A stretch of DNA of 64,000 bases from Methanosphaera sp. ISO3-F5 (lineage in GTDB: Archaea > Methanobacteriota > Methanobacteria > Methanobacteriales > Methanobacteriaceae), in the NCBI RefSeq assembly GCF_034480035.2, contig NZ_CP118753.2, forward strand, positions 1,893,426 to 1,957,425, read 5' to 3'. Positions within the stretch are counted from its first letter, which is position 1. Every line of letters starts with the position of its first letter. The notes under the pieces were generated by a model. That model ran no database searches. It had not been told where the DNA came from and saw only the letters and a list, made by a program, of their open reading frames with translations. Of this stretch, positions 9,086-60,223 are shown piece by piece. A program made the translations under genes and the position numbers.

Positions 9086-9126
9086 GTCGGATAAGTCGAG
9101 GGGATTGCTCCCCTCTTCTCTCCTAA

Positions 9127-9160
9127 GAACCGTACGTGTCAGTTTCCCGACATACGGCTC
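9127..9160 (-). ncRNA. Group II intron domain V
   Basis: A 34-nt hairpin with the conserved AGC near the 5' side (GAGCCGTATG) pairing with CGTACGGTTC and a GAAA-type apical loop. It is the catalytic core of the intron RNA, lying 44 nt after the maturase stop. Confidence 0.9.
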
Positions 9161-9204
9161 AAGCATATCTGATATTAAGAGAATAAGTTAGGTTTAAAGC
9201 GAGT

Positions 9205-10815
9205 TTATTTGTCGTATAGTACTTCGATTGGTGTTTTATGCCATATTTTCTGTATATATTCTTTGAATTGGTGGTCATATGGTGTGGCTTTGTATTTTAT
9301 TTGTCTTGAGTAATTTATTTTGAACCAAGACATTTTGATTAGTTGAGTTTTATGGTTTTCTGGATCGGTTAGTATGTATTTGTCTTTATGTTGTCGGAAG
9401 ATGTCCGGATGGAAATATCTTTGTAGTATCCATTTCCATGGCTTTTTGGGGTGTCGTCGTTTTAGGTATTTGCGTGTTAATTGCCATTGGTAGTATGTTA
9501 TTTTGTTAAATGTTTCTGATGCTGATGTTTGACGCCAGTAGTGAGCTGTTCCTCTTATTGTATTGTTTGCTTTCTTAATAAGTTCTTCTATGGGTTTGGA
9601 TTTGTGTAGTTTGAATAGTAGTTTTAGTTTCTTCTTCAAGTTTTGTATTGATTTCTTAGATGGTTTTGTTAGTACTTTGAATCCCTTTTTCTTGTTGTCT
9701 CTGTATGCTCTGATATTAAATCCTAGAAAATCAAATCCATCTTTGATATGTGTAATCAGTGTTTTCTCTGGTGATAGTTCAAGTCCTCTCTCTGTTAAAT
9801 ATGGTTTCAGTAGATTTAATGCTTCTTTTGCGTCTTCTCTTGTTTTACATAGTACTATGAAGTCATCCGCGTATCTTATCATCACGTATCGTGATTTATT
9901 GACATATGATGTTCTCTTGTTTGTTTTATTGTATACTTTCTTGTATGTTATTCCAAGTGCTTTTTCCATCCCGTCAAGTGCTATATTAGCAAGCAATGGT
10001 GAAATTATACCTCCTTGAGGAGTTCCATCATCAGATGGATGAAAAATAGCATCTTCCATATAACCTGCTTTAAGCCATGAATGAATAATAGTTTTAGCAG
10101 GAAAATTTCCCAACTGTTTTATTATCCAGTCATGACTCAATGTATCAAAACATGATTTAAAATCACCTTCCAGTATCCAAGGACGCTTTAACCCCCTAGT
10201 AAAAGCATGTATTTTAGCTATAGCATGACCAGCATTACGCAAAGGTCTAAATCCATAACTAGTTGATTCAAACACAGCTTCAAAACGAGGTTCAAGTGCC
10301 AAATATACAATCATCTGCAGAACCCTATCAGTAATGGTAGGAATACCCAAAGGTCTTCTCTTCCCATTCGACTTCCTGATATAAGTTCTGCGAACTGGTA
10401 AAACATCAAAATCATTAATGTTTGTACCAAGGAGTTTATAGTAAAGTGCACGACGCTGAGCCTTAGTAGTGATAATCATATTATCAATACCAGCTGTTCT
10501 AGCACCTCTATTGAATTGAGTGACTCTTTTGATAGCATAAAGGATAGCTGAGCTACTTTTCATCAACAAAGATTCCAAATTACGCACCTTACGATAATCC
10601 CCTTCTCTTACCGCTTTAAATATTTGTGTTTGTAAATCGAAGATGTGCTCTTCAATCTGAGTCCAGGGAATCGCTTCCCATTCTTCTTCAAGTTGAGACT
10701 CATGTAATTCCGCATAAGTAAGAACATCCATATCCTTACCTCTTTCAACATGAACTACATTTTCAGCATTATCATTAATAATTCTTAACACCTCCTCCCT
10801 TATCTGATTTACCAT
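9205..10815 (-). CDS. ltrA: Group II intron-encoded reverse transcriptase/maturase (no endonuclease domain)
   Basis: This protein of about 536 residues has the reverse transcriptase order: TAGIDN region, RRPLGIPTITDRVLQM, SYGFRPLRNAGHAI, LEGDFKSCFDTLSHDW, GTPQGGIISPLLANIALDGM and the catalytic RYADDFIVL. The maturase (X) domain follows (KKANNTIRGTAHYWRQTSAS and the HPKKPWKWILQRYF region). It ends shortly after SPYD-type sequence (ATPYDHQFKEYIQK). The Cys/His HNH endonuclease found in LtrA is absent. It should splice this intron and reverse-transcribe it during retrohoming. The start is uncertain: ATG 10815 (MVNQIREEVL) is used, and a TTG at 10854 is possible. It is clearly related to the enzyme at 55228-56757. 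Confidence 0.93.
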   Translation of the reverse strand: MVNQIREEVLRIINDNAENVVHVERGKDMDVLTYAELHESQLEEEWEAIPWTQIEEHIFDLQTQIFKAVREGDYRKVRNLESLLMKSSSAILYAIKRVTQFNRGARTAGIDNMIITTKAQRRALYYKLLGTNINDFDVLPVRRTYIRKSNGKRRPLGIPTITDRVLQMIVYLALEPRFEAVFESTSYGFRPLRNAGHAIAKIHAFTRGLKRPWILEGDFKSCFDTLSHDWIIKQLGNFPAKTIIHSWLKAGYMEDAIFHPSDDGTPQGGIISPLLANIALDGMEKALGITYKKVYNKTNKRTSYVNKSRYVMIRYADDFIVLCKTREDAKEALNLLKPYLTERGLELSPEKTLITHIKDGFDFLGFNIRAYRDNKKKGFKVLTKPSKKSIQNLKKKLKLLFKLHKSKPIEELIKKANNTIRGTAHYWRQTSASETFNKITYYQWQLTRKYLKRRHPKKPWKWILQRYFHPDIFRQHKDKYILTDPENHKTQLIKMSWFKINYSRQIKYKATPYDHQFKEYIQKIWHKTPIEVLYDK

Positions 10816-11480
10816 ACACAAGTAAAATATTCCTATCTTTTTCTCAAAGTTCAATTAATACACCTGTTAAAGTGGGCATATCCCCCCATAGTTATAAAGT
10901 TGCTTCTATTTCCTATGTGCCTTTCGACAATAGTAGGGGCATTAGCTTTCTTAACATCCTTTACCCAACAAGGATTATCAGCATCCGCTCACGCAGTAGC
11001 CTTCCAAACTTGTAACATATCACTTGACTAGTACAATTTGGACCAATTGCTGGGCTTACCAAGTTTATCTTCTGTCAGATACGAATAAATTCAACTTAGG
11101 CTCTTCTTTTACACCAGTAAATCAACTATTGGGTTATGAATGGATGACACGTGAACAAAACCGTGCCTCACCAAGGATTTACAATACTCATAGGGTTACC
11201 AGTACTCATTCCTATAATTATACGTTGTGATGCTTAAAGAAGTTCATAAAATTTCTTAGTATTAGCCATTATTGATTCTTTCTCTAGCCCTTAACTTTCT
11301 TCCGAGTACTTCGAAAATTAATTAGGCACTTAACTCTCATGCAACCCACACCCCCCGTTACCAGAAAGTGCAGTTTCGAGCGAGAATAACCACCATAACC
11401 TAGGTTAACAAGAACAACCAATGATAATCATCGGTCTCTTGTACTGACTGCGAAGCAAAGAAGATAATTTCTTGTCGCAC

Positions 11481-52365: not shown

Positions 52366-53643
52366 TTGTTAGATATTAAAATATTTAGAGATAATCCTGA
52401 AACAGTATTTGAATCAGAAAAGAAAAGATTCAGAGAAACAACAAACGCAGAAAAAGTAATAGAATACGATAATTTATGGAGGGACGGACTTAAAAGATTA
52501 AACGATCTACGTTCAGAAAAAAATAAGTTATCAAAATCATTCAAACAAGCAAAAAAAGATGGTAACATCGAAGAAGTCATAACCAAATCAAAAGAAGTTG
52601 CCAATGAAATAAAAGAACTTGAACCAAAAATCGAGGAATACATTAAAATCCGTGACGATTACAGGTACAAGGTAGGTAACATCATTGATTCAGAAGTTCC
52701 AATCTCAGACACTGAAGATGATAATTTGATAGTGAAAGAGGAAGGAAACAAAAAATCATTCGATTTCACACCATTAAACCATGTTGATTTAATTCAAAAA
52801 ATTGACGGAGCTGACACAGAAACAGCATCAAGCATAGCAGGTTCAAGATTTTATTACCTGAAACAGGACATACTATTCTTAAACCTTGCATTAATACAAT
52901 TTGCATTAAATGAACTCAAACAACAGGGATACACACCACTACAAACACCATTCTTCGTTAAAAGTGAAGTAGCAGCAGAAACATCCGAACTAGGAGAATT
53001 TCAGGAAACACTATACAAAGTAGAAAACGAGGACTTATACCTCATAGCAACCGCTGAACAAACACTAGCAGCACTTCACCGGGACGAAATCATAAGCTCA
53101 GAAGACCTTCCACTACGTTACTGTGCATTATCAACATGCTTCAGAAAGGAAGCAGGATCACACGGTAAAGACACACTGGGAATATTCAGAGTACACCAGT
53201 TCGAGAAAATTGAACAGTTCATATACTCCACCCCTGAAGAATCAGTAAATGAACATAAAAGATTACTCGAAGTAACAGAGAACATATACAAAAAATTAGG
53301 ATTATCTTACAGGATAGTTTCAATAGTATCCTCAGCTTTAAATGATAATGCAGCAATAAAGTATGACCTCGAAGCATGGTTCCCAGGTTCTAATGCATAC
53401 AGGGAACTGGTTTCATGCACAAACTGTAAAGATTATCAGGCAAGAAAAACCAAAACTCGTGTAGGACAAGCAGGAGCAGGAGATGCCGTTACTTTACACA
53501 CACTTAACAGTACGGCTATTGCTACAGAAAGAACTATATGCTGTATTCTTGAAAACTATCAGCAAGAAGACGGTAGCATAAAAGTTCCAGATGTATTAGT
53601 ACCATACATGAATGGTAAAACAGTCATTGAAGCTAAAAATTAA
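52366..53643 (+). CDS. serS: Seryl-tRNA synthetase, common (bacterial-like) type
   Basis: This 425-residue protein has an N-terminal coiled-coil tRNA-binding arm (about residues 30-100: KRLNDLRSEKNKLSKSFKQA). Class II motifs follow: TPLQTPFFVKSEV, ALSTCFRKEAGSHGKDTLGI with FRVHQFEKIEQF (motif 2), and LNSTAIATERTICCILENYQ (motif 3). This is the widespread SerRS, not the rare zinc-dependent methanogen type. The start is TTG 52366 with GGGGTAAT upstream. A group II intron begins 15 nt after the stop, in a T-run. Confidence 0.95.
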   Translation: MLDIKIFRDNPETVFESEKKRFRETTNAEKVIEYDNLWRDGLKRLNDLRSEKNKLSKSFKQAKKDGNIEEVITKSKEVANEIKELEPKIEEYIKIRDDYRYKVGNIIDSEVPISDTEDDNLIVKEEGNKKSFDFTPLNHVDLIQKIDGADTETASSIAGSRFYYLKQDILFLNLALIQFALNELKQQGYTPLQTPFFVKSEVAAETSELGEFQETLYKVENEDLYLIATAEQTLAALHRDEIISSEDLPLRYCALSTCFRKEAGSHGKDTLGIFRVHQFEKIEQFIYSTPEESVNEHKRLLEVTENIYKKLGLSYRIVSIVSSALNDNAAIKYDLEAWFPGSNAYRELVSCTNCKDYQARKTKTRVGQAGAGDAVTLHTLNSTAIATERTICCILENYQQEDGSIKVPDVLVPYMNGKTVIEAKN

Positions 53644-54489
53644 CCCCCATTTTTTTTGGTGCGACGAGCGATTATCTTTAATTTTGTTCGCACATTAAAT
53701 TCTTTTTTTTGTGTTGGTATAGTATTTATTTGAACGGATACTTTTAACCTTGTTGTATGGGTTATTCTCCCTTGAAACTGTGTTACTGGTAACTGTGGGG
53801 GTAGTTTGCATGATAGGTAAAGCTTAATCTTATTCCTAGCATCCATGGAATGGAGGGCGAGAGAAAGACCAATAGTTGGGTTAATGTTAAATGAACTTTT
53901 ATAAGCATTGTGAAGTGGGCCAACATGTTAGGATGATTAAAGGATGTGTTGAAGATTGTAGGCAGGTTAGACGAAGTGAAAAAGGACGTCTATTGATTAC
54001 TACCTGTATGTCTGTCGGTGTAATGGGAGAGCCTAAGTTGTGTCGTAGTGTCTAACAGAAGATAAACTCGGTAAGTCCAGTAAAGTCTAATAACTATTAT
54101 TGGTAGGGGTTTCTGTGAGGAAATTCTAAGACTTTATTGGGTAAGGGATGTTGAGAAAAGCTAATGCCATCGTGAGTCGTTGAGACAGCAGGAATTTAAC
54201 AAAATTACGACTGTTTGATGGATATGCTGACTTCAACAGGTGTATAACATGATTATTAAAACGGATTTGTATTCATAGGGATGTGTGATGATATTATGAG
54301 TCAATTTTCAGTTGAAGAAAACTGTAGAAACTCTAGTGGTTTGTGTCAGTCCACGATAATTAGACAAACTCGACGAAGAATGGTCCAATATTAATTGGAA
54401 CTATGTTACTCGAAGCATACATCGGATACAATAGTGGAGAATTTATGCTGAAGAAACTAGTGAAGTTTCTTTAGATAACTAATATGCTT

Positions 54490-54523
54490 GAGCTGTATGT
54501 CTGGAAACGGACACGTACGGTTC
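54490..54523 (+). ncRNA. Group II intron domain V (outer intron)
   Basis: A fully paired 34-nt domain V of the outer intron. The inner intron starts 11 nt after it (54534), in the linker to domain VI. Confidence 0.9.
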
Positions 54524-55227
54524 TGAGGAGAGAGTGCGACAAGATAGGATCTCCAATTCCCATTGTTGTCAGTGAAACAAGGATATTGTTCTTGTTTTAA
54601 TCCTAGTCGTATTGGGATTTCATTATCTGAAACTTCTAATTGAGTGATTGGTTGGAAGGTTGCATGACGAAAAGTCTAATCAAATATCCTTATTTTCCAA
54701 AATATTATATATTCAAAGGGATGTTTGGGGGCTAAATGAAGAGTAAAATAATGGTTAACTTAAAGTGAATGGTTGTAAGCCTCGTCACAGATAACAATTG
54801 AATAATTTGAATAATACCTATTAAATAGGATTTTTGGAAATATAATTGTCTTATAAACAGGAAATAAGTATTTCTCTCATACTTAATTGTATACGACCCA
54901 CATGTTTATCGGGGTATAGACTGAACCTGCACTTACTCGTATCTGGCTGGAGATTAACTTGGTAAGCTTCTTATGGTCTCAAAGATTAGTTTTTTTGAGT
55001 AAGTGGATTGTGAATGAAGCCTAAATCCATAGGATGTAGAGGATTTTGGAGGAAGCTAATGCCGTTATTAACCGAAAGGTAGCAGAAAAGAAAGGGAATT
55101 AGAACTGTGAACGGATACCATTCCTTAATTTATGGATGGACTTGGAAACAAGGCAGACTTCCAAATGGTGAACAACACGTGAATAAAGCGTTTTTATTTA
55201 GTATTTACTGAAAGGATGGTGAATATA

Positions 55228-56757
55228 ATGATGAGTAACACCTGTAATAATAATTATAGGTCCACGACTCCATACACTACTGATTGGTCTTGTATTAAAT
55301 GGAATAGGATTGAAAAGTATGTAAGTAAATTACAGAAGCGAATATTTCGTGCCGAGCGTAATGGTAATTCTCATAAAGTACGTGATTTGCAACGAATGTT
55401 AGTTTATAGTGAATCAGCGTTACTTATGGCTATTAAAAGAGTTACTCAGATTAATAAAGGTAAAAGAACACCTGGAATTGATAATTTTCGTGCTTTATCG
55501 GATGAAGCACGTGGTGAACTTTTTGATTCGATGAAGTTAATGAATATTAAGAAACATAGGCCTAAACCCGCATATCGTACTTATATTCCTAAAAAGAATG
55601 GTAAATTACGTTCACTGGGTATACCTGCAATAGTTGATAGAATATATCAAGAAATTCTTCGTATGGCCCTTGAACCACAAGCAGAAGCTTATTTTGAGCC
55701 TACTAGTTATGGTTTCAGACCTAAAAGAGGTACTTTTGATGCTGCCGAAAGAATCTTTTATAACATCAGAAATGGAAAATGGAACTGGGTATTTGAAGGA
55801 GATTTTCGAGCTTGTTTCGATACACTTTCACATGATTTCATTTTAAAACAAATAAAGGGATTTCCCTTTGTTAAAGTTGTTGAACGATTTTTAAAAGCAG
55901 GATATGTGGATAATAAAGTATTTAATCCTACTAATGAAGGTACACCTCAAGGGGGCTTATTATCGCCATTGCTTGCAAATATTGCATTACATGGTATGGA
56001 AGAAATTTTAAACATATCCTATCATAAAAGAAATAGTATACGAAATGGAAAAGTATATGAATCCTTTGAAACTAAAGGAAAATATCGAATTGTTAGGTAT
56101 GCGGATGATTTTGTGATATTTGCCAGAAATAAGGAAGATATTTTAGAAGTAGATAATATTCTTCAACCTTATCTTAAAGACAGAGGTTTAACTCTTGCTT
56201 TAGATAAAACGAAGATTACAAATATTCATGATGGATTTGATTTTCTAGGTTTTGAATTCAAAAGACATAAAACTCATAATGGATTTAAATCTCTTATCAA
56301 ACCAGCTAAAAGTGGTATTCAGAAATTTATGAAAGAAATTGACCGAAGATTTAAAATTATGAATGGTAATAATGTTGATTCGTTAATTAATTTTATTAAT
56401 CCATTAATTCGAGGAACGGCTAATTATTGGAAACCCTTTATTTCTAGTCGTATATTTTCTAAAATGGATAATTACATTTGGAAAAAGACTTATAAATTTC
56501 TTAGAAGATTGCATCCACATAAAAGTTGGGGTTGGATTAAGAAGAAATACTTTCCACCTTATAATGATGGTAGACATAGGGATAATTGGATTTTAACTGG
56601 CCCTAACGATGGTCTTTGTTTGGCTAAAATGAGTTGGGTTAAGATTAAGAGACATATTATGATTAAACATGATTATAGTCCTTATGATGCTACTAAATCA
56701 GATTATTTTAATATGAGAAATCTTAAATATAAGAATATGCCCTTACATCTTGGATAA
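55228..56757 (+). CDS. ltrA: Group II intron-encoded reverse transcriptase/maturase (no endonuclease domain)
   Basis: This protein of about 509 residues has all the reverse transcriptase motifs: KRTPGIDNFRAL, GKLRSLGIPAIVDRIYQEIL, SYGFRPKRGTFDAAER, FEGDFRACFDTLSHDFI, EGTPQGGLLSPLLANIALHG and YRIVRYADDFVIFARN. The maturase domain follows (INPLIRGTANYWKPFISSRI and LHPHKSWGWIKKKYFP). The C-terminus ends after SPYDATKSDYFNMRN without an HNH endonuclease. ATG 55228 is chosen because GGTGA lies just upstream. It is homologous to the protein at 9205-10815 but clearly diverged. It probably serves the inner intron and possibly, in trans, the ORF-less introns around it. Confidence 0.94.
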   Translation: MMSNTCNNNYRSTTPYTTDWSCIKWNRIEKYVSKLQKRIFRAERNGNSHKVRDLQRMLVYSESALLMAIKRVTQINKGKRTPGIDNFRALSDEARGELFDSMKLMNIKKHRPKPAYRTYIPKKNGKLRSLGIPAIVDRIYQEILRMALEPQAEAYFEPTSYGFRPKRGTFDAAERIFYNIRNGKWNWVFEGDFRACFDTLSHDFILKQIKGFPFVKVVERFLKAGYVDNKVFNPTNEGTPQGGLLSPLLANIALHGMEEILNISYHKRNSIRNGKVYESFETKGKYRIVRYADDFVIFARNKEDILEVDNILQPYLKDRGLTLALDKTKITNIHDGFDFLGFEFKRHKTHNGFKSLIKPAKSGIQKFMKEIDRRFKIMNGNNVDSLINFINPLIRGTANYWKPFISSRIFSKMDNYIWKKTYKFLRRLHPHKSWGWIKKKYFPPYNDGRHRDNWILTGPNDGLCLAKMSWVKIKRHIMIKHDYSPYDATKSDYFNMRNLKYKNMPLHLG

Positions 56758-56767
56758 AAGTTTGCTC

Positions 56768-56801
56768 GAGCTGTATGTCTGGAAACAGACACGTACAGTT
56801 C
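56768..56801 (+). ncRNA. Group II intron domain V (inner intron)
   Basis: A 34-nt hairpin GAGCTGTATG...CGTACAGTTC starting 10 nt after the maturase stop. The catalytic AGC and the GGAAAC apex are present. Confidence 0.9.
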
Positions 56802-56943
56802 CAAAGAGAGTATGGGGGAGTAATCCTCCAATCTTATCTGACAGGAGTGAGCAATCACTCCGACTTATCAGACAACTAGTAAAATATCCTTACGACAATT
56901 ATATTCAAAGCCATCGATTAAAAGATGGATGATGTATCTCAAT

Positions 56944-57825
56944 TTAAGAATCATCCTCCTGAGGGGTTTCCGGAATCTCGCCAAACCAGTTGCTTCTATT
57001 TCCGATGTAATAAAGTAAGATACCGAAAATTACAGAGCCCATGGTTGAAATTATTAAATCAGCCATTTGTATTGTTGAGGTTGAGGATTGAATTCCGAAC
57101 ATGACCAGTAAGCTGAAGGATAAGTTATTTGCAGTATGGAATGCGGAACTGACTTCCAGACCATTGGCTTTCCATGCTAAAAATCCCATTACTAAACCTG
57201 AAATTATTATCCCAATGTTTCCTATACCATTGTATCCGTGGGTGAATCCAAAGATTATGGCTTGGAGAATGATTGCCAATAATGGTATGTTAAACCATGA
57301 CCCTAAGGTTTGCATAAGAAGTCCACGGTACACGTATTCTTCAGCAATACATTGTAGCGGCACTACAATTAGGAGGATTATAAATAACAGTATTGTAAAA
57401 TGATAATTTCCTCCATTACCTAGTATTATGGATTCAATAATTCCAACGACAAGGAATAAAATAAACGGGATTATAAATGCCTTGAGATAGAGTTGGGTGT
57501 TCCATCCTCCACGTGAAGAGGAGTATGAGGAAAACGGCCTATCCTTAACAATTTTATTTGCAAGGTACAAAGATGGAAGCATGATGACCACTCCCAAATG
57601 AGAATAGATTTCGCCTATCTCGGAGTTCATGACTTCATATCCTCCATGCAGGAGTTGGACCATAATGTTTTCTCCACATATTGCATAGAAAACGGCAATT
57701 AATAGTAGGTTGAGTATTAAAAATATTATTGTACCTATTATGAAAACTAGTATTGGCTTGTACCATCTGTATTTTTCAAAAGTTTTTGGAAATGTTATGT
57801 ATTCTGAAATCTCTTTACCTGTCAT
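56944..57825 (-). CDS. CPBP (CAAX/Abi-type) intramembrane glutamic protease
   Basis: This 293-residue polytopic protein has the family motifs: CIAEEYVYRGLLMQTL (E-E-x3-R, catalytic Glu), IFGFTHGYNGIG (F-x3-H) and SSAFHTANNLSF (second His, N-N). Members include Rce1-like prenyl proteases and bacteriocin-immunity proteins. The substrate here is unknown. The gene lies between the twintron and the single intron copy, on the opposite strand. Confidence 0.88.
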   Translation of the reverse strand: MTGKEISEYITFPKTFEKYRWYKPILVFIIGTIIFLILNLLLIAVFYAICGENIMVQLLHGGYEVMNSEIGEIYSHLGVVIMLPSLYLANKIVKDRPFSSYSSSRGGWNTQLYLKAFIIPFILFLVVGIIESIILGNGGNYHFTILLFIILLIVVPLQCIAEEYVYRGLLMQTLGSWFNIPLLAIILQAIIFGFTHGYNGIGNIGIIISGLVMGFLAWKANGLEVSSAFHTANNLSFSLLVMFGIQSSTSTIQMADLIISTMGSVIFGILLYYIGNRSNWFGEIPETPQEDDS

Positions 57826-57938
57826 ATGTACATATTTCTATTTATTTGCATATAATGTTATAGGAATAATATGTTTTATAGGTGTTTTTGTGAAAATTAT
57901 TCGTTAGATAAAATCTGATTTTTCAAGAATTTCAGTGA

Positions 57939-58301
57939 CTGCCAAATATTAAATTATATCTCAAGTATTTCGATTCACAAAAGACAGACAAGAAAACAAT
58001 AATAGATGCTAAAGCCAGTAAAGTTTCCAATTGTGTTGACTGGGGACAGGTATATTACAGAATAGCTAAATCATTAGGTTATGATGTGCAGTTTGTCCAT
58101 GTCAAATGCCGAGTCTCTGGAACTGGCCATATCAGATTAAGATTAAGACATAAGAAACATACTGGGGGAAACTGGATTAATCGTGATCCTGCTGCAGTAG
58201 CAGATACAACTTCAGGTAATGTCAGAGCAATCTGGTGTGAAGATGGATATGTGATAGCTTATGATCCATCCTGGATATTCACAGATTTGTACAGTAGTTA
58301 A
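57939..58301 (+). pseudogene. C-terminal fragment of a transglutaminase-like surface protein (PeiW/pseudomurein-peptidase type)
   Basis: The open part reads LPNIKLYLKYFDSQKTDKKT, then VSNCVDWGQVYYRIAKSLGY, CRVSGTGHIRLRLRHKKH, TGGNWINRDPAAVAD and WCEDGYVIAYDPSWIFTDLY. It resembles the C-terminal catalytic domain of methanogen transglutaminase-like/pseudomurein endoisopeptidase proteins. The presumed triad Cys (NCVD), His (TGH) and Asp (RDP) is complete. An in-frame TGA at 57936 and the lack of any signal peptide or N-terminal domains show that the gene has lost its 5' part. A short internal start (GTG 58086) would exclude the catalytic Cys. Confidence 0.75.
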
Positions 58302-58328
58302 CGTTAATGTTAAATCATTTTCTTTTTT

Positions 58329-59239
58329 GTGCGACGAGAAATCATCTTTAATTTTGTTCGCACCTTAAATTCTTTCTTTTTTGGTGTGTGTATGTATAGT
58401 ATTTATTTGAACGGATACTTTTAACCTTGTTGTATGGGTTATTCTCCCTTGAAACTGCGTTACTGGTAACTGTGGGGGTAGGTTGCATGATAGGTAAATC
58501 CTAATCTTATTCCTAGTATCCATGGAATGGAGGGCGAGAGAAAGACCAATAATTTGGTTAATGTTAAATGAACTTTTATAAGCATCGTGTAGTGGGCCAA
58601 CATGTTAGGATGATTAAAGGATGTGTTGAAGATTGTAGGCAGGTTAGACGAAGTGTAAAAGGACGTCTATTGATTACTACCTGTATGTCTGTCGGTGTAT
58701 TGGGAGAGCCTAAGTTGTGTCGTAGTGTCTAACATAAGATGAACTCGGTAAGTCCAGTAAAGTCTAATAACTATTATTGGTAGGGGTTTCTGTGAGGAAA
58801 TTCTAAGACTTTATTGGGTAAGGGATGTTGAGAAAGCTAATTCCATTGTGTGTAGTTAAGATGGCAGGAATTTAACAAAATTGTAACTGTTTGATGGATA
58901 TGCTGACTTCAACAGGTGTATAATATGATTATTAAAAGGATTTGTATTCATAGGGATGTGTGATGATATTATGAGTCAATTTTCAGTTGAAGAAAACTGT
59001 AGAAACTCTAGTGGTTTGTGTCAGTCCACGATAATTAGATAAACTCGACGAAGAATGGTCCAATATTAATTGGAACTATGTTACTCGAAGCATACATCGG
59101 ATACAATAGCGGATAATTTATGCTGAAGAAACTAGTGAAGTTTCTTTAGATAACTAATATGTTTGAGCTGTATGTCTGGAAACGGACACGTAAGGTTCTG
59201 AGGAGAGGAGGAGAGAGCAACCTCTCTAACTTATTTGAA
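58329..59239 (+). mobile_element. ORF-less group II intron, uninterrupted copy
   Basis: It starts GTGCGACGAG at 58329, 27 nt after the stop of the peptidase fragment, in a T-run. It is nearly identical to the outer intron at 53659 from its 5' end to domain V. Domain V is at 59165-59198 but has GTAAGGTTC where the other copies have GTACGGTTC, which breaks one G-C pair. Domain VI follows (GGAGAGAGCAACCTCTCT). The 3' end aligned to the outer intron reads CTTATTTGAA and lacks the usual AY terminus, so this copy may be defective. The end is uncertain by a few bases. Confidence 0.85.
59165..59198 (+). ncRNA. Group II intron domain V with a disrupted pair
   Basis: GAGCTGTATG is opposite CGTAAGGTTC; the C-to-A change creates a G-A mismatch in the lower stem compared with 54490-54523. 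Confidence 0.8.
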
Positions 59240-59386
59240 ATATATTTTTTTCTAACATTTTTATATAACTTCTAACATATCATTAAATAATTAAATAATT
59301 TACGAATAATAAAAGAAAAGTAATAGATTCATATTAATTATTCAGTAATTAATTCATTTATAACAGCAAATACAAGGTGATCAAAT

Positions 59387-60223
59387 ATGGAAATAAGCGA
59401 GATCATGACAGAAGAAGTACAAGCAGGATCAGTGCCAGGATCAGTACAAACTGTATATGAAATTTTCAGAGACAAGAAAATATCTGGAATTCCTATTGTT
59501 AAAAAACAAACAGGTGAACTGGTGGGAGTACTTACACGTTCTGATTTAATAAAAAATCCTGATGAGGATCAAATAGCAATGGTTATGACAAGAAATCCTA
59601 TAACGGCAGCTCCAGATGAAGATGTGATTTCAGTAGTTCATAAAATGATTAATAATAATATTAGAAGAGTACCTATAACAGAAGAAAACCAGTTAGTTGG
59701 TATAGTAACATCCTCTGATATTATTAACAAAGCATTATGGCAGATAAATAACACTGAACCTGTAGAAAAGTATATGGTACGTAATATACCAACAGTATGG
59801 GATAAGACTCCATTATCTGTTGCATATTCAATTTCACACAACTTTGATTTCAAATCAGTAATAGCATTGAATGATGAAAGTAAAGCTTCAGGTATATTAA
59901 CTGAAACTGACTTTATCAATGAAAGTCAAATAGTTGGTGAACAGGAAATTCATAATAGTTCAGTAAGTACTGAAGGAGATAAATGGACCTGGAACAGTCA
60001 GAGTGTAATGTACATCCTAAAGAATAAGCTTAAATTCTCAGATAAGTTAGTACGGGATGTTTCTGGTGAAAAATTAATATCAGTTACACGTAAAACATCA
60101 GTTAAAGAATGTGCAAACATTTTAAAGAAAAATAATATTGAACAGGTTCCTGTTTTAAACATGTCTGATGAACCTATCGGACTTATCAGGGCCAGTGATT
60201 TAATGAGGGCTATGATAGGGTAA
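59387..60223 (+). CDS. Protein with four CBS domains
   Basis: This 278-residue protein consists of four tandem CBS motifs with their typical ends: KKISGIPIVKKQTGELVGVL, NIRRVPITEENQLVGIVTSS, DFKSVIALNDESKASGILTE and NIEQVPVLNMSDEPIGLIRA. CBS pairs bind adenosine nucleotides or SAM and act as energy or ligand sensors. No attached catalytic domain is present. An AAGGTGAT ribosome site precedes the ATG. It lies downstream of the intron copy but has its own promoter gap. Confidence 0.9.
   Translation: MEISEIMTEEVQAGSVPGSVQTVYEIFRDKKISGIPIVKKQTGELVGVLTRSDLIKNPDEDQIAMVMTRNPITAAPDEDVISVVHKMINNNIRRVPITEENQLVGIVTSSDIINKALWQINNTEPVEKYMVRNIPTVWDKTPLSVAYSISHNFDFKSVIALNDESKASGILTETDFINESQIVGEQEIHNSSVSTEGDKWTWNSQSVMYILKNKLKFSDKLVRDVSGEKLISVTRKTSVKECANILKKNNIEQVPVLNMSDEPIGLIRASDLMRAMIG

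Follow-up and report, generated by a model that had tools for sequence, protein, structure and literature searches.

A probably splicing-impaired, ORF-less group II intron copy carries the empty nested site of a twintron in Methanosphaera sp. ISO3-F5

In Methanosarcina acetivorans, nested group II introns have been described, with repeated site-specific homing balanced by deletion via homologous recombination (as outlined in PMC4424553). In archaea more widely, a survey of 296 genomes is summarised as showing that group II introns occur chiefly in Halobacterota and Thermoplasmatota (PMC8919778), and bacterial class C (IIC) introns are mentioned as inserting at intrinsic (rho-independent) terminator motifs (PMC8919778, PMC4424553). 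The listings of one literature collection held no paper on group II introns of Methanosphaera or Methanobrevibacter. The locus in this study resembles the Methanosarcina twintrons in being archaeal and nested, in its non-coding surroundings and in repeated homing into group II introns. However, the lineage differs, the nested site lies in the domain VI (DVI) 5' strand adjoining domain V (DV) in several host introns, and the outer family sits at T-tracts. The title of the original Methanosarcina paper reportedly speaks of homing into related intron ORFs. Class C introns and the outer family are both found just after genes, at terminators (candidate ones here), with coding sequence spared; the outer family, in contrast, matches its T-tract by A-rich EBS1 pairing, and the two are likened by their insertion position. 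Ribozymes without an IEP that occur alongside related RT-encoding introns are also known, and the copy studied here is alike, but it has DV and 3'-end lesions as well. We regard it as probably a defective member of a known archaeal nested-intron type, in which the pairing with T-tracts and the home site in DVI may be new features.

The window is the whole analysed stretch of 64,000 nucleotides, and its genome consists of 2 contigs and is 99.99% complete. R denotes the intron copy at 58329-59239 (+), and L denotes the outer intron of the twintron, 53659-54533 plus 56843-56873. The genus genomes (20 including the window genome) are labelled G0xx, their contigs Cn and the intron loci Lnnn; G010, a MAG of 200 contigs, is counted with the window's species. 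The features of the locus are as follows.

52366-53643, +, serS (seryl-tRNA synthetase), the left of the two ancestral neighbours (annotation, synteny)
53659-54533, +, 5' part of L: D1-DV and the DVI 5' strand of the outer intron (alignment)
54534-56842, +, inner intron, of group II and with an RT gene, within DVI of L (junction comparison, Rfam)
54872-54878, +, candidate EBS1 of the inner intron, a UUCUCUC loop in AAGTAT..ATACTT (complementarity read by eye)
55216-56757, +, reverse transcriptase/maturase of the inner intron (annotation)
56843-56873, +, 3' part of L: remaining DVI, ending AGAC (alignment)
56874-58328, no strand, segment of 1455 nt between the intron copies (genus search)
56944-57825, −, gene for a CAAX (Rce1-like) membrane protease, within the segment (annotation)
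57981-58301 (remnant from 57943), +, remaining 3' part of a viral gene for a pseudomurein endopeptidase (similarity to vir323)
58321-58328, +, IBS1 region of R's 5' exon, a T-tract after a stop codon (EBS1-exon pairing)
58329-59239, +, R, a group II intron copy of 911 nt that has neither an ORF nor a nested intron (alignment, Rfam)
58655-58662, +, EBS1 of R (GUAAAAGG), loop of the hairpin AGACG..CGTCT, 7 of 8 exon bases paired (consensus fold, pairing)
59165-59198, +, domain V of R, with C-to-A at 59193 opposite G59170 (DV comparison, hairpin prediction)
59199-59239, +, linker plus domain VI of R, closing with AA (59238-59239), not AY (3'-end comparison)
59208-59209, +, empty nested site, the junction that the inner intron occupies in homologous copies (alignment)
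59260-59269, +, TATA-like element ahead of the CBS gene; G015, the closest relative that is free of the intron, has it at the corresponding position
59387-60223, +, gene for a CBS-domain protein, the right of the two ancestral neighbours (annotation, synteny)

R is homologous to L over its full length, both ends included, which makes it a member of the twintron's outer family. In the pairwise alignment, L (906 nt) and R were identical at 859 of 904 positions, with 9 gap columns, and a similarity search with R positions 1-879 returned L at E = 0 and 95% identity. The 5' end of R at 58329 is GTGCGAC, which is common to the family and of the group II GUGCG type. With the inner intron set to 54534-56842, the last 40 nt of L and R aligned without gaps (31/40 identical), which places the nested site of R at 59208|59209. 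A reading made from the sequence alone had taken R for an ORF-less, empty-site copy of the outer intron and had proposed this alignment as a check, and we found the same: identity is high, the boundaries correspond and the inner intron is missing. That reading also held that R fixes the nested insertion point independently. The point itself stands, but its independence does not: seven changes that no other aligned copy shows are common to R and L, and a single acquired segment lies between the two. Judged from its bases, R displays the inner intron's target in the uncut state.

In all hosts compared, the inner intron begins after ..GGAGAGA or a close variant in the domain VI 5' strand. The UCUCUC of its candidate EBS1 complements the host end ..GAGAGA|, and the target in R, which ends ..GAGAGG, gives a wobble at the last base. 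The inner intron was found at the same DVI site in the window, in G010 (C27, C28, C32, C201 and C113), twice in G015 (C16), and also in a Methanobrevibacter contig (L027). Between G015 and the window, 2282 nt of the inner intron aligned with 7 mismatches and one gap, whereas identity between the same two species is 83.9% for serS and 87.5% for the CBS gene, and this suggests a recent between-species transfer. The MFE of the inner intron's 5' region was no better than that of shuffles, so we claim no structure there beyond the short EBS1 hairpin read by eye. The host intron on C28, at 97.6% identity to that of G000, was considered as one half of an orthologous empty/filled pair and rejected, because the flanks differ and the site is a different one. 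A triple nest was also observed (L026 5318-7650, G015:C16:1-2380), in which a host intron contains the inner intron and this contains a second inner intron at its own domain VI, the second being represented by its first 54 nt only, up to the contig end.

Position 29 of DV is a C in 26 of the 27 distinct DV sequences among the loci compared. R is the sole exception: A59193, a C in L, faces G59170, and the G-A mismatch described from the sequence alone is real. The predicted DV hairpin has -10.8 kcal/mol in R versus -15.8 kcal/mol in L. The Rfam model RF00029 (Intron_gpII) matched DV/DVI of R at 59163-59234 with 39.1 bits, the gathering cut-off being 40 bits, and the other nine matches of this model in the genome scored 48.1-60.3 bits; the 52.5 bits of L come partly from inner-intron bases standing in for DVI, so L and R were not compared by Rfam score. 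The 3' end of R is CTTATTTGAA and that of the family is CTTATCCGAC. Among 19 scorable DV/DVI copies, 17 end in AY, L081 ends in GC and R ends in AA, in agreement with the earlier remark on a 3' end without the AY consensus, and for lack of this end we filed R as a probably defective copy instead of a working intron. The end at 59239 is backed by G010:C197: from ATATATTTTTTTC onward its 3' flank equals that of R, and its intron ends in TAC at that point.

The ribozyme body of R (D1-DIV) is intact. The consensus fold has 187 pairs in D1-DIV, and the numbers broken in R, L, G010:C197 and L003 were 3, 2, 5 and 2, respectively, with 9, 7, 9 and 6 private changes. The idea that R is more decayed overall than L was rejected, since the copies are alike in both respects. 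Because D1-DIV is no worse than in relatives, the case for impairment consists of two lesions and not of general decay. We believe that the DV mismatch and the AA end most likely leave R without splicing and mobility, or with poor ones, so that the impairment suspected earlier is to be considered probable. The opposite explanation, that R still splices because its lower DV helix tolerates a G-A pair and its 3' end a final A, with the help of an RT in trans, is unlikely. It would be in line with the intact D1-DIV structure, with other RT/maturase genes in the window (that of the inner intron and an RT at 9205-10854) and with the non-AY end of L081. However, C29 is constant in all 26 other distinct DVs, the DV model of R is weaker by 5 kcal/mol and both lesions occur together in R. 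Weak splicing of R might still be rescued in trans by an RT/maturase. The L/R pair offers an in-genome test of twintron splicing, with nearly the same ribozyme with and without the inner intron, and R adds single-base lesions for study.

In 17 of the 19 other genomes of the genus, the CBS gene comes right after serS; in G019 serS was not found within the 1.5-kb flank of the CBS gene, and in G017 the contig starts too close. In the window, R and L form direct repeats that bracket the acquired segment between these two genes. The segment had no near-full match among the 19 other genus genomes, its absence from G010 being weak evidence because a short repeat-flanked contig could be lost from a 200-contig MAG. 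Partial matches occurred in G018 (best 73% over 158 nt), with very short ones in G016 and G019. The endopeptidase fragment (106 residues) has 91% amino acid identity to Caudoviricetes sp. vir323, a Methanobacteriales virus, and 80% DNA identity over 352 nt. Its missing 5' part did not turn up in this genome, and a search of viral contigs for the CAAX protein confirmed none. The seven shared changes and the single flanked segment link R and L by recombination or conversion, and the two copies are not simply independent insertions.

In G010:C197, serS, one intron and the CBS gene stand in a row. This intron has the 5' exon of L, the 3' flank and DVI of R, and inner-type DV/DVI before the site 59208|59209, an arrangement that fits both recombination between copies and a former occupation of this site. 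The end of G010:C197 shows a C-to-A run against the other serS copy, C106, and this run is likely to be sequencing errors; G010:C106 also ends in a serS-site intron. R has a tract of alleles in common with L003, which indicates a mosaic history and makes conversion among copies likely. An attempt to place the L-R crossover took G010:C197 for the parental type; the informative sites conflict and errors in C197 are likely, so we claim no breakpoint. Our view is that the segment between serS and the CBS gene likely came from recombination between intron copies, in which homologous recombination between outer-intron copies would have placed a segment with a virus gene remnant there; mechanism and direction are our inference. 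Intron copies may matter as recombination points that bring foreign segments into the genome, and R is chiefly useful as a natural record of the nested intron's landing site and of intron-driven genome rearrangement.

If R were a retro-copy of L, made from RNA already rid of the inner intron, it would be a fossil of sequential twintron splicing. The seven changes found in L and R but in no other aligned copy and the precise absence of the inner intron would suit such an origin. However, the DVI of R (AGGAGAGAGCAACCTCTCT) is of the type of the G008 copies and G010:C197 and agrees with that of L at 23 of 31 positions, the 3' flank of R is the serS-CBS intergenic sequence, and the EBS1 of R is the allele of L003 and not that of L. 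A simple retro-copy of spliced L is thus disfavoured, since DVI and the 3' flank of R are those of the serS-CBS side, and we consider this origin very improbable. Another explanation is that R once had the inner intron and lost it precisely through recombination or conversion with an empty copy. In the same-flank copy G010:C197, inner-type DV and DVI sequence runs precisely up to 59208|59209, so the locus seems to have been occupied once in the species. R itself carries no scar, and the bases on both sides of its site are of the G008 type, as in a never-occupied copy; we hold such a loss to be possible but rather doubtful. An assembly artefact, in which repeat collapse or a mis-join made R or its position, is hardly credible: near-identical repeats at a distance of 4.7 kb are known to endanger assemblies, but the genome has 2 contigs at 99.99% completeness, R is set apart by private changes and by a 5' flank of its own, and on its 3' side it agrees with the flank of G010:C197.

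R starts in a T-tract, 27 nt past the stop codon of the endopeptidase fragment, and the TATA-like element follows 21 nt beyond its end; this element should serve the CBS gene. As R lies between a dead fragment and the promoter-like element that the CBS gene has for itself, we infer that loss of splicing is tolerated, and R retained in a transcript would probably be without consequence. The consequence drawn in the reading from the sequence alone, a fixed RNA insert in the transcript downstream of the peptidase fragment, would matter little, because the fragment is 5'-truncated and viral and the CBS gene has its own TATA-like element. In the proposed course of events, recombination between outer-intron copies would have brought in the segment, and the RT-encoding inner intron would have homed into the DVI 5' strand of L and several other hosts, not R. 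R would be left as an orphaned ORF-less copy in which the lesions in DV and at the 3' end made splicing and movement lost or poor, and this loss would be tolerated between a dead gene fragment and the promoter-like element of the CBS gene. We are fairly confident of this account as a whole, in which R is orphaned, ORF-less and splicing-impaired, brackets together with L a segment placed by recombination, and is tolerated.

The position of R after a stop codon is shared by its family. Intron starts were located from the intron sequence alone, and not every copy of every genome was fetched; after 5' ends with identical last 15 exon bases were merged, 17 distinct 5' ends remained. L133 (G010:C106) is the serS site again, so these represent 16 independent sites. 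All 17 lie 15-87 nt past an ORF that has 60 or more codons and runs on the same strand; in 16 of the 17 there are at least 6 T among the last 8 exon bases, versus a background of 3.9% of window positions. Of the T-rich window positions, 23% lie within 90 nt after an ORF of at least 60 codons, compared with 17/17 intron ends; for ORFs of at least 100 codons, the values are 10% and 14/17 copies. The candidate EBS1 of the outer family is the loop of the hairpin AGACG..CGTCT in the consensus fold. In nine copies, with the register set by eye, 65 of 72 EBS1-IBS1 positions were paired, whereas shuffled partners gave a mean of 59.1 (p = 0.016), and R forms 7 of 8 pairs. The first bases of EBS1 track the exon, with GU facing an AC end in L003 and UAU facing an ATA end in G005.

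In Methanococcus maripaludis, U-tracts have been tied to archaeal termination (as described in PMC8716108). We take the T-tracts at the outer family's insertion sites to be probable archaeal transcription terminators, which the family would recognise through its A-rich EBS1. In a wider scheme of two linked specialisations in gut methanogens, whose chances of being right or wrong seem to us about equal, the outer family would target U-tract terminators by an A-rich, co-varying EBS1, and the inner intron would target the domain VI base of group II introns, including its own relatives. If this targeting is true, every outer insertion would be a fresh home site for the inner intron, and R would be an unoccupied and disabled instance. 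The outer family suggests that group II introns persist in AT-rich archaeal genomes in a way that is safe for genes, by using T-tract exons after stop codons.

R-like sequence was found in 8 of the 20 genus genomes and in 27 of 150 genomes of the whole order (3 of 19 genera), the matches outside the genus being shorter and partial. The matching contigs include uncultured Methanosphaera and Methanobrevibacter records, and a plasmid collection searched with R gave no match. In G008, three outer-family copies of 2.29 kb have a 515-codon open frame that extends into domain IV, which makes the ORF-less form the probably derived one. An intact cognate RT of the outer family was not seen in the copies of the window's species (L, R, L003 and G010:C32): L and R have no RT, and L003 ends prematurely at position 776. 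In the copy on G010:C32 (L120), most of D1-D3 is deleted, with R positions 1-23 joined to about 784; the RT behind this deletion is broken over three frames, and the inner intron is in DVI. The outer-family copy L110 985-1761 (G000:C1:1843884-1844660) stops at position 776, directly 5' of a 966-codon open frame resembling a surface adhesin, and a stretch of G010:C70 orthologous to the L110 region is 98% identical. A separate group II intron with DV and a 549-aa RT (9205-10854) lies at 9086-10854 of the window on the minus strand and scored 60.3 bits with Rfam.
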